In this document: positions 4,565 through 18,472 of the stretch, piece by piece
Position numbering within the stretch: the stretch's first letter is position 1
Layout: each line of letters starts with the position of its first letter
Source of the DNA: Pseudomonadota bacterium
Lineage (GTDB): Bacteria; Pseudomonadota; Alphaproteobacteria; Rickettsiales; SXRF01
Direction: 5' to 3'
Assembly: GCA_028873525.1 (NCBI GenBank)
Contig: JAGWIM010000011.1
Location: 1 to 33,106 of the forward strand
Length of the DNA: 33,106 nt
The notes under the pieces: generated by a model
Databases searched by the model: none
Told to the model about the DNA's origin: nothing
What the model saw: the letters and a program-made list of their open reading frames with translations, nothing else
Translations under genes and position numbers: made by a program

Positions 4565-5050
4565 GTGGCGACGAAAGCAAAAATGCCTGCGAAAAAGGAA
4601 ATGGCTGCCGAAAAAGCGCCGATCATTAAAACCACCAAGGAAAAAGCACCTGCTGGCCATGCCGAGGTGATTACCTACGGCACCGGGCGGCGCAAAAACG
4701 CCATCGCCCGCGTCTGGGTCAAACGTGGCAACGGCAAAATCACCGTCAACGGCAAGGCGCTGGAGCAGTATTTCGCGCGTCCCGTGCTTCGCATGATCAT
4801 CAACCAGCCGTTCGCCTCGATCGACCGCATCGGCAATTTTGACGTCAACTGCACCGTCGTCGGCGGCGGCCTTTCCGGCCAGGCCGGGGCGGTGCGCCTG
4901 GGCCTCAGTCGTGCGCTCAATATTTACGACGAGACCTTCCATAAAAAACTGCGCGTCGGCGGTTTCCTGACGCGCGACAGCCGTGTCGTCGAGCGCAAGA
5001 AATACGGTCATAAGAAGGCGCGCCGCAGCTTCCAGTTCTCTAAGAGATAA
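4565..5050 (+). CDS. rpsI: 30S ribosomal protein S9
   Basis: [27 protein letters not shown]...C-terminal [20 protein letters not shown] start. Confidence 0.95.
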
Positions 5051-17113: not shown

Positions 17114-17171
17114 TGTCATTGCGAGCGATCGAAGGCCGCGTGGCAATCCGGCCAAAGCGCCATGGGCGCGG
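17114..17171. repeat. REP-like element (GTCATTGCGAGCG end plus shared core)
   Basis: TGTCATTGCGAGCGATCGAAGGCCGCGTGGCAATCC followed by CAAAGCGCCATGGGCGCGG, the core shared with 22719-22737 and 24097-24114. Confidence 0.75.
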
Positions 17172-17182
17172 TAAAATTTAAG

Positions 17183-17212
17183 TTGCAAAATTTATTTTAA
17201 CAATTTAATAAT
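17183..17212 (+). promoter_or_regulatory. Putative promoter of the structured leader and lipoprotein gene
   Basis: TTGCAA (17183-17188), 18-nt spacer, AATAAT (17207-17212). Confidence 0.4.
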
Positions 17213-17242
17213 GTGGCAAGCGCGATAAACGCGCCCGGGGTG

Positions 17243-17427
17243 TCGTAACCTCTTATCTGTCGGCTTTGTGCAGCCGTTACCCGCACTCCCTAGCCTTGGC
17301 TGGGGAGGCTGTAATGTATGTCCAGAGCCGCTAGGCTTAAAGATTGCAGCAAACCTAGCAGATAGGTTTTACGAACTCCCCAGTCACCAGTGATGGTGGC
17401 TTCCATTCATAGCCAGGGGAGTTCTAC
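17243..17427 (+). promoter_or_regulatory. Structured 5' leader, candidate cis-regulatory RNA
   Basis: Closing stem TCGTAACC..TATCTG / CAGATAGG..TTACGA; inner hairpins at 17261-17276, 17286-17307, 17331-17358; terminal stem GAACTCCCC (17373-17381)/GGGGAGTTC (17416-17424) contains the SD. Confidence 0.6.
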
Positions 17428-17955
17428 ATGCTGAAAAAATCATCTTCTACTATCGCGGCGATTGCCTGCGTCGCTCTGCTTTCCGGCTGCATGGCCAACG
17501 GCCAGCAGTACGCATCCGATGTGTATCAGGCCGGTCAGGTCAACGAGCAGCAGGAAGCGAAAACGGTGCGTATCCTGGCGGTGCTGCCCGCGAAAATCGA
17601 AGTGGATAATACGCAGGGTCAGAAAAACGCGCAGGTTATCGGCGGTCTGTTGGGTGCTCTCGGTGGCGCCGTCGCCGGACACCAGATTGCGCAGAACGGC
17701 GGGCAGGGCGCGGTCGTCGGCGGTGCCAGCGGCGCGGCGGTGGGCGTCGCCGCGGGGTCACTGGTCAGCAATAAGGTGCTGGTCAAAGGCGTTTCGATTA
17801 CCTACACGCACCATCACAAGACATATAACTCGGCGCAGGTTGGACGCCTGTGCGAATTCAAGCCGGGCGTCGCCATCATGATTACGACCAAAGCGCATGA
17901 AACCCGTATCCAGCCTAACGCCACCTGCCCGAAAGCAGAAAAGGAGGATGATTGA
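17428..17955 (+). CDS. Glycine-zipper outer-membrane lipoprotein, SlyB-like
   Basis: Lipobox LLSGC; DVYQAGQVNEQQEAKTVRILAVLPAKIEV; glycine zipper GGLLGALGGAVAG. Confidence 0.8.
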   Translation: MLKKSSSTIAAIACVALLSGCMANGQQYASDVYQAGQVNEQQEAKTVRILAVLPAKIEVDNTQGQKNAQVIGGLLGALGGAVAGHQIAQNGGQGAVVGGASGAAVGVAAGSLVSNKVLVKGVSITYTHHHKTYNSAQVGRLCEFKPGVAIMITTKAHETRIQPNATCPKAEKEDD

Positions 17956-17956
17956 T

Positions 17957-18472
17957 ATGCGCCGTTCTTTCTTTTTAACTGTTGCGCTTGCGATGATGCC
18001 CGCGAACGCATTTTCGCAGGCAACATTGCAGGATCAGATTTCCGCCGTCAACCGCGCCTATACTGACGAGCAGGCGTCCGAAGCCGCCGCCCGCAAAGCG
18101 GCGGAGGCGGTGCAGAAAGCGCGTGCCGCCAAAGCGCAGGCGCGCCGCGATCAGGAAAAAAAGCGCGAGGAGGCGTATCAGGATAAATTGCGCCAGATGC
18201 AGCTTGATAACGTACAAATGGATCTGGATGCCAAGAAGGCTATCGTCAATCATGCGGATGACTACATCAAGCAGGACTTGAAGGAGCGGGCGGCTGAAAC
18301 CGACGTGATTCAGTCCAACGCCGACGCCACGAGAAATCTGTCCGAAGGCGCGAAAAAGGAAATGGTGAGCGAGGGAAAAGCCGACGAGAACCTGTCGCAG
18401 GGCGCGGAAAAGAAAATGGAAAGCGAAGGCAAGGCCGACGAAAGAAAAGTCAAGGGATTCTGGGGGTTTTAG
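17957..18472 (+). CDS. Periplasmic coiled-coil protein, DUF5384-like
   Basis: Signal peptide; TLQDQISAVNRAY...DDYIKQDLKERAAETDVIQSNADATRNLSEGAKKEM resembles DUF5384 proteins. ATG at 17957 after AAGGAGG. Confidence 0.7.
   Translation: MRRSFFLTVALAMMPANAFSQATLQDQISAVNRAYTDEQASEAAARKAAEAVQKARAAKAQARRDQEKKREEAYQDKLRQMQLDNVQMDLDAKKAIVNHADDYIKQDLKERAAETDVIQSNADATRNLSEGAKKEMVSEGKADENLSQGAEKKMESEGKADERKVKGFWGF

Follow-up and report, generated by a model that had tools for sequence, protein, structure and literature searches.

What does the strongly folded RNA ahead of the lipoprotein gene in this DNA do, and does it control the gene that follows? We think the answer is probably yes: our modelling makes it likely, well short of certain, that this leader belongs to a widespread, modular family of cis-acting RNA switches that stand ahead of mobile-element genes. 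All coordinates are those of the window, by which we mean the whole stretch of 33,106 nucleotides that was analysed. The leader strand folds at -81.3 kcal/mol while its shuffles reach -58.1 +/- 4.5 (z -5.2, 0/200), and its parts, as we now read them, are as follows.

17183-17212, plus strand: promoter-like TTGCAA-18-AATAAT from a consensus scan, start expected at about 17218
17220-17234, plus: P0 hairpin GCGCG-ATAAA-CGCGC at the 5' end
17237-17390, plus: conserved structured RNA element (models R1/R3), R1 147 bits, with covariation
17237-17240/17249-17252, plus: H1 hairpin GGGG/CCUC with loop UGUCGUAA, 98% paired, two-sided changes in 3/4 pairs
17243-17248/17369-17374, plus: PKb, UCGUAA within the H1 loop, 99% paired, two-sided changes in 5/6 pairs
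17254-17259/17359-17364, plus: P1c, UAUCUG with the P6-loop strand, about 81-91% paired, two-sided changes in 6/6
17261-17264/17273-17276, plus: PK1 pseudoknot CGGC/GCCG, threading through P2, CGG/CCG core 94% paired
17268-17271/17283-17286, plus: P2 stem GUGC/GCAC, 89% paired, two-sided changes in 4/4 pairs
17286-17295/17298-17307, plus: P4 hairpin CUCCCUAGCC/GGCUGGGGAG, which excludes helix A, 93.4% paired
17298-17307/17376-17385, plus: helix A, GGCUGGGGAG/CUCCCCAGUC, about 89-96% paired, two-sided changes in 4/10 pairs
17308-17315/17343-17350, plus: P5 with conserved internal loop GUAUGUCC..AAAG, 98% paired, two-sided changes in 8/8
17326-17329/17334-17337, plus: P5b, inside P5
17352-17355/17365-17368, plus: P6 hairpin AACC/GGUU, loop carrying the P1c strand, 89% paired, two-sided changes in 4/4
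17373-17381/17416-17424, plus: candidate OFF stem GAACUCCCC/GGGGAGUUC, predicted to hide the Shine-Dalgarno (SD) sequence through CUCCCC:SD complementarity
17382-17401, plus: T1 hairpin AGUCACCA-GUGA-UGGUGGCU, 5' arm overlapping the 3' strand of helix A
17416-17421, plus: Shine-Dalgarno GGGGAG, read from the sequence, 6 nt before the ATG at 17428
17428-17955, plus: glycine-zipper lipoprotein gene, the putatively regulated gene, 50% identity to phage P1/P7 Upf50.5
17957-18472, plus: DUF5384 gene, second of the cassette, Pfam E=1.2e-28

A pseudoknotted leader in a two-gene cassette

An initial annotation of this DNA had proposed a long-range closing stem, and its pairings do exist (TCGTAA 17243-17248 with TTACGA 17369-17374, and TATCTG 17254-17259 with CAGATA 17359-17364), although they are actually two strands of a pseudoknotted fold, PKb and P1c. 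A further part of that stem, in which the 5' GGGG would pair with a distal CCCC, shows no covariation and was dropped in favour of the local GGGG/CCUC hairpin H1. The second stem that had been described (GAACTCCCC 17373-17381 with GGGGAGTTC 17416-17424, containing GGGGAG) is there, as is the CACCA/TGGTG hairpin, and what had been overlooked is the other partner of CUCCCC, namely GGCUGGGGAG at 17298-17307, which forms helix A. A transcription start within 17373-17427 would have spoken against such a leader, and the sole promoter-like site predicts a start near 17218, upstream of the fold. That site is weak alone (1 found versus 1.3 expected in the consensus scan), and its position fits a transcript that begins at the base of P0. 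Of 88 homologues, 85% have a P0-equivalent hairpin of unrelated sequence next to the element (mean score 7.0 versus 3.6 shuffled), and T1 is likewise present in most of them (mean 6.3 versus 3.8 shuffled; 45/73 clearly above). Just 5' of the promoter, at 17115-17180, lies an interspersed palindromic repeat (CATTGCGAGCG...GCGTGGCAATCC) with 16 matches in the host genome.

The leader and its two genes sit in the tolB-tolA interval, on the opposite strand, and in eight relatives tolA stands beside tolB with a gap of less than about 0.4 kb. The whole has the look of a two-gene cassette that was acquired. The glycine-zipper match of the lipoprotein falls below the Pfam cut-off, and DUF5384 was absent from the other 36 genomes in a search of 37 genomes of relatives. 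Within the host order the lipoprotein has only remote relatives (about 30% identity, with 4.5e-8 as the best E in any other genome), and the RNA is therefore not tied to the lipoprotein gene. Indeed, the idea that the leader belongs to this lipoprotein family was ruled out, since in the phage homologues, including those of P7 and TL-2011b, the lipoprotein gene is again followed by a second gene but has no leader, and since the leader is found ahead of many different genes. Elsewhere in the window, ARAGORN calls a 92-nt tRNA-Val(gac) on the minus strand at 4802-4893 where cmscan reports no tRNA in the window, and this is probably a false call.

Two exclusive helices and the next gene's ribosome site

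How far is such a fold conserved? A BLASTN search with 17200-17440 across 177 genomes of the host order matched 17237-17402 in other families, several times per genome (best E 4e-33), and a covariance model, R1, built from 16 copies and used at E<=0.01 with E-values from a short calibration, finds matches in 70 of these 177 genomes, with up to 17 copies in each and four in the host genome. Beyond the order, R1 matches 54/387 genomes of the class and 32/399 of the phylum sample. The order is probably Rickettsiales, in keeping with an alphaproteobacterial tmRNA in one relative and with homologues of the RNA in Rhizobium and Agrobacterium. A degenerate copy in the host genome (L099, G000:C72:10408-10556), whose AUGUCC core has become GCGUCC, is followed after about 100 nt by an NAD kinase gene.

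When 93 copies were aligned to R1 and the pairs counted on a pseudoknotted model read from the sequences, covariation was evident, and 92.4% of the cells of the 50-pair model were paired, against 71.3% after column shuffling. Two-sided changes occur in 41/50 pairs, with 965 two-sided cells versus 290 shuffled, although these homologues are related, so that cell counts are not independent events and the shuffles leave phylogeny in. The covariation score is 0.58 versus 0.20 shuffled, and sliding the partners drops pairing to 35-50%. The training structure of R1 contained PKb, P1c, P2, P4, P5 and P5b, and the alignment is biased towards those helices; H1, PK1, helix A and P6 lie outside it. One strand, GGYYGGGGAG, takes part in two exclusive helices, helix A and P4, and both covary (61 two-sided cells versus 12.8 shuffled for P4). 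Conservation of both partners of a single strand is the signature of a switch.

The coupling to translation comes from the second use of the CUCCCC strand. Of 88 distinct copies, 83 have a predicted ORF start 26-124 nt past CUCCCC, and the 22 nt before these starts pair with AACUCCCC at -8.8 kcal/mol, versus -6.2 for a control set of 116 other SD-bearing genes from the same loci (p=2e-10); an SD bonus entered the choice of start codons and may raise the apparent complementarity, although the controls were likewise SD-filtered. GGGGA or GGGAG precedes the start in 56% of leader genes versus 16% of control genes. In addition, strand and SD show matched changes, for example AACCCCCG with CAGGGGGAG (L057), AACCCCCG with GGGGTT (L135) and AACACCCC with GTGTT (L096). 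A CUCCCC strand that is matched to the SD of the next gene is, as far as sequence can tell, the anatomy of a translational switch. Taken together, the covariation among 88 distinct homologues and the family-wide SD:CUCCCC match bear out the initial view of a cis leader with competing, SD-hiding domains.

Could the competing domains simply respond to heat? An RNA thermometer, in which warming melts the SD stem, had been one of the options first raised, and it would account for an SD that lies inside a perfect 9-bp stem. We consider it scarcely credible: in silico the stem is still over 96% formed at 60 C (probability 0.97), which is not the melting expected of a thermometer, and a thermometer would have no need of so elaborate a conserved pseudoknotted core.

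What we propose instead is a switch between the two exclusive folds. Transcription would start at the base of P0, and the RNA could then adopt either fold. In the ON fold, helix A (GGCUGGGGAG:CUCCCCAGUC) would close the pseudoknotted core and occupy CUCCCC, leaving the SD free, while in the OFF fold GGCUGGGGAG would pair with CUCCCUAGCC as P4, AGUC would go into T1, and GAACUCCCC would pair with GGGGAGUUC, hiding the SD of the lipoprotein gene. For the window RNA, nested folds are computed at -71.0 for OFF and -49.7 for ON, with pseudoknot energies left out of both, and since the nested OFF fold is the more stable, ON requires cotranscriptional folding or a binder. We infer from the model that helix A marks the ON fold, that the RNA passes between the two folds in cells, and that a bound signal, be it a ligand or a factor, stabilises the helix A fold.

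Kinship with sRNA-Xcc1

The initial annotation recognised no known Rfam class, and that is true of the window copy itself. At the gathering threshold no Rfam family matches in the window, and a search of 17150-17450 at E<=5 returned only a chance match to CC0196 on the other strand; against RF02221 (sRNA-Xcc1) the window copy gives nothing at E<=5 and so does not reach the gathering cut-off of 53 bits. What the statement missed is that the RNA is homologous to RF02221, which is filed in Rfam as an 88-nt, trans-acting, integron-associated sRNA. In some class-level homologues the 3' half gives a weak match to RF02221 (36 bits, E 0.004-0.006), and at some places, such as G635:C9 and G705:C300, R1-type and RF02221 models coincide. 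The closing helix of RF02221 is helix A, and a core closed by helix A, then P5 with its internal loop, then P6, is common to both.

RF02221 loci, which a search of the phylum found in 54 of 299 genomes, share the 5' domain (H1, PKb, P1c), upstream of and outside the Rfam model: the strand before the 3' side of helix A has on average 8.2 nt of complementarity to the upstream region (4.9 in mismatched loci), and the P6 loop has 6.9 nt (4.9 mismatched). A second model, R3, built on helix A with RF02221 loci excluded, recovers 17/25 RF02221 loci at full length, with a best E of 8e-8. Moreover, the P6-loop/PKb strand of RF02221 loci complements the next gene's ribosome site (6.8 versus 5.3 nt; permutation 0/20000), with at least 7 nt in 16/25 loci versus 13% of mismatched pairs. 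The branches differ here: in the window copy the helix A strand is predicted to hold the ribosome site, a task for which RF02221 loci would mainly use the P6-loop/PKb strand. On these sequence comparisons the two RNAs share a common ancestry as a superfamily, in which the window copy is best placed as a relative of RF02221 and not a member, because it fails the RF02221 score test.

Is the RNA then a base-pairing sRNA that acts mainly in trans, as was proposed for sRNA-Xcc1? A 2011 paper on sRNA-Xcc1 reportedly calls it trans-acting in its title. The RNA was cloned as an 88-nt species with RACE-mapped ends (PMC2996969), which speaks for a trans role. We nevertheless regard such a role as improbable, given an ORF at 26-124 nt downstream in 83/88 copies, RNA strands that complement the adjacent gene's ribosome site in cis in both branches, and a conserved 5' domain that falls outside the 88-nt RNA. 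The shared 5' domain, the recovery by R3 and the cis complementarity lead us to the view that sRNA-Xcc1 is the stable core of a leader that acts in cis. At 87 model positions, the helix A domain matches the 88-nt sRNA in length, and this agreement suggests that helix A forms in cells. Like the window RNA, sRNA-Xcc1 lies upstream of mobile genes, and in 2025 it was noted upstream of symE in Xanthomonas integron cassettes (PMC12444791).

Downstream genes, and comparison with known switches

Plain BLAST of the window leader or of the RF02221 consensus against plasmids gave no match. Relatives of one copy occur in 254 plasmid records. TraM is a quorum-sensing antiactivator of Ti-plasmid conjugation, and directly upstream of traM lies an RNA that matches R1 at full length in pEHA105; this leader is found in 246 plasmid records, 181 of them at 80% of its length or more and 172/246 from Agrobacterium. 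We found no published description of the traM-leader RNA in a literature coverage that was incomplete, and earlier recognition is possible. Genes behind the RNA on plasmids also include HTH regulators and, on Ketogulonicigenium pYP1, a gene for a DUF2285 protein. QseM-type DUF2285 proteins act as antiactivators of conjugation (PMC10359603), and domain and small size suggest that those here are QseM-like.

This mobile context (209/254 of the plasmids typed conjugative, downstream recombinases, insertion between tolB and tolA) might suit a DNA recombination site or the end of a mobile element, with no role as RNA. That is very unlikely, because the covariation includes G-U pairs, polarity and spacing to the start codon are fixed, the SD is complemented, and the flanking sequence outside the element is unrelated.

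Several groups of copies have features of their own. In 18 loci with Rhizobiales-type copies (L169-L178, L197, L090, L091, L137-L139, L141, L143) a near-invariant hairpin, GCGGGGGCGYACCGC, sits 17-26 nt past the element, and its loop GCGYA complements the P0 loop UACGC; in L176 both loops are changed (UACGU / ACGUA), and the sequences suggest kissing of this hairpin with the P0 hairpin. One genome, G109, has 17-18 copies (L104, L106, L109, L112, L114 and L116 among its loci), several of which stand ahead of type IV pilin-like genes that are almost identical and share GFSLVELSIVL; two of them are arranged in tandem (L106). This may be a pilin cassette family that has expanded under a single RNA. 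In Rickettsia-like genomes (G026, G064, G111, G118, G130, G146, G151, G156, G161, G164, G173; 2-9 copies each) the copies L117-L136 precede short ORFs that resemble serine-recombinase N-terminal relatives and have no Pfam match. On the Shinella plasmid unnamed7 (L179) an IS110-family transposase gene comes after the element, whose 3' CUCCCC strand is replaced, as if the leader had been cut by insertion.

Pfam, run on 69 downstream proteins, gave the pilin-like N-methylation motif 7 times, resolvase/recombinase 4 and 3 times, HTH 4 times, and GIY-YIG, DUF4268 and RovC_DNA-bd twice each, plus singletons; the RovC_DNA-bd matches we take to be DUF2285-type. No common metabolic pathway is seen among the downstream genes, whose Pfam and PHROG matches are diverse, and an attempt to name a metabolite from them was dropped for that reason. 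Riboswitches usually precede genes of one pathway, although this is not strictly required; the lack of a shared pathway is unusual for a metabolite riboswitch and counts against one. Such diversity (recombinases, HTH proteins, TraM, pilins, lipoproteins), like the 17-18 copies that a genome may carry, would fit a general physiological or regulatory-protein signal, in which case the same leader fold would be run by a host or mobile-element protein, the ribosome or an antisense RNA, with the core as binding platform. We hold this to be a serious alternative, though on balance an unlikely one: no conserved partner gene is seen beside the copies, and the loops GUAUGUYCA/AAAG and the multiple pseudoknots seem to resemble ligand pockets.

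Our broader proposal, to which we give slightly less than even chances, is that the window RNA and sRNA-Xcc1 form one large unrecognised riboswitch class, through which a single cellular signal governs the translation of mobile-element antiactivators (TraM, QseM-like DUF2285), recombinases and cargo, with RF02221 as its mis-filed 3' half. If this were true, an RNA filed as a trans-acting sRNA would be the core of a cis translational switch in wide use among the conjugative plasmids and other mobile elements of Pseudomonadota, and an RNA layer would be added to the control of horizontal transfer via traM and DUF2285 (QseM-like) genes. It also raises a testable question, which is what signal mobile elements read with this RNA.

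How does the leader compare with known systems? The switch reading itself is computational and rests on the covariation of both folds, the match of SD to CUCCCC and the same anatomy in sRNA-Xcc1. A riboswitch should have a covarying, conserved 5'-leader structure, which is found here, and exclusive folds tied to the ribosome site, which are found in silico. Like translational riboswitches, this RNA combines a conserved pseudoknotted core, exclusive helices and an SD-hiding expression platform by the start codon; unlike them, it stands ahead of genes that point to no single metabolite, and its riboswitch status is a prediction from sequence.
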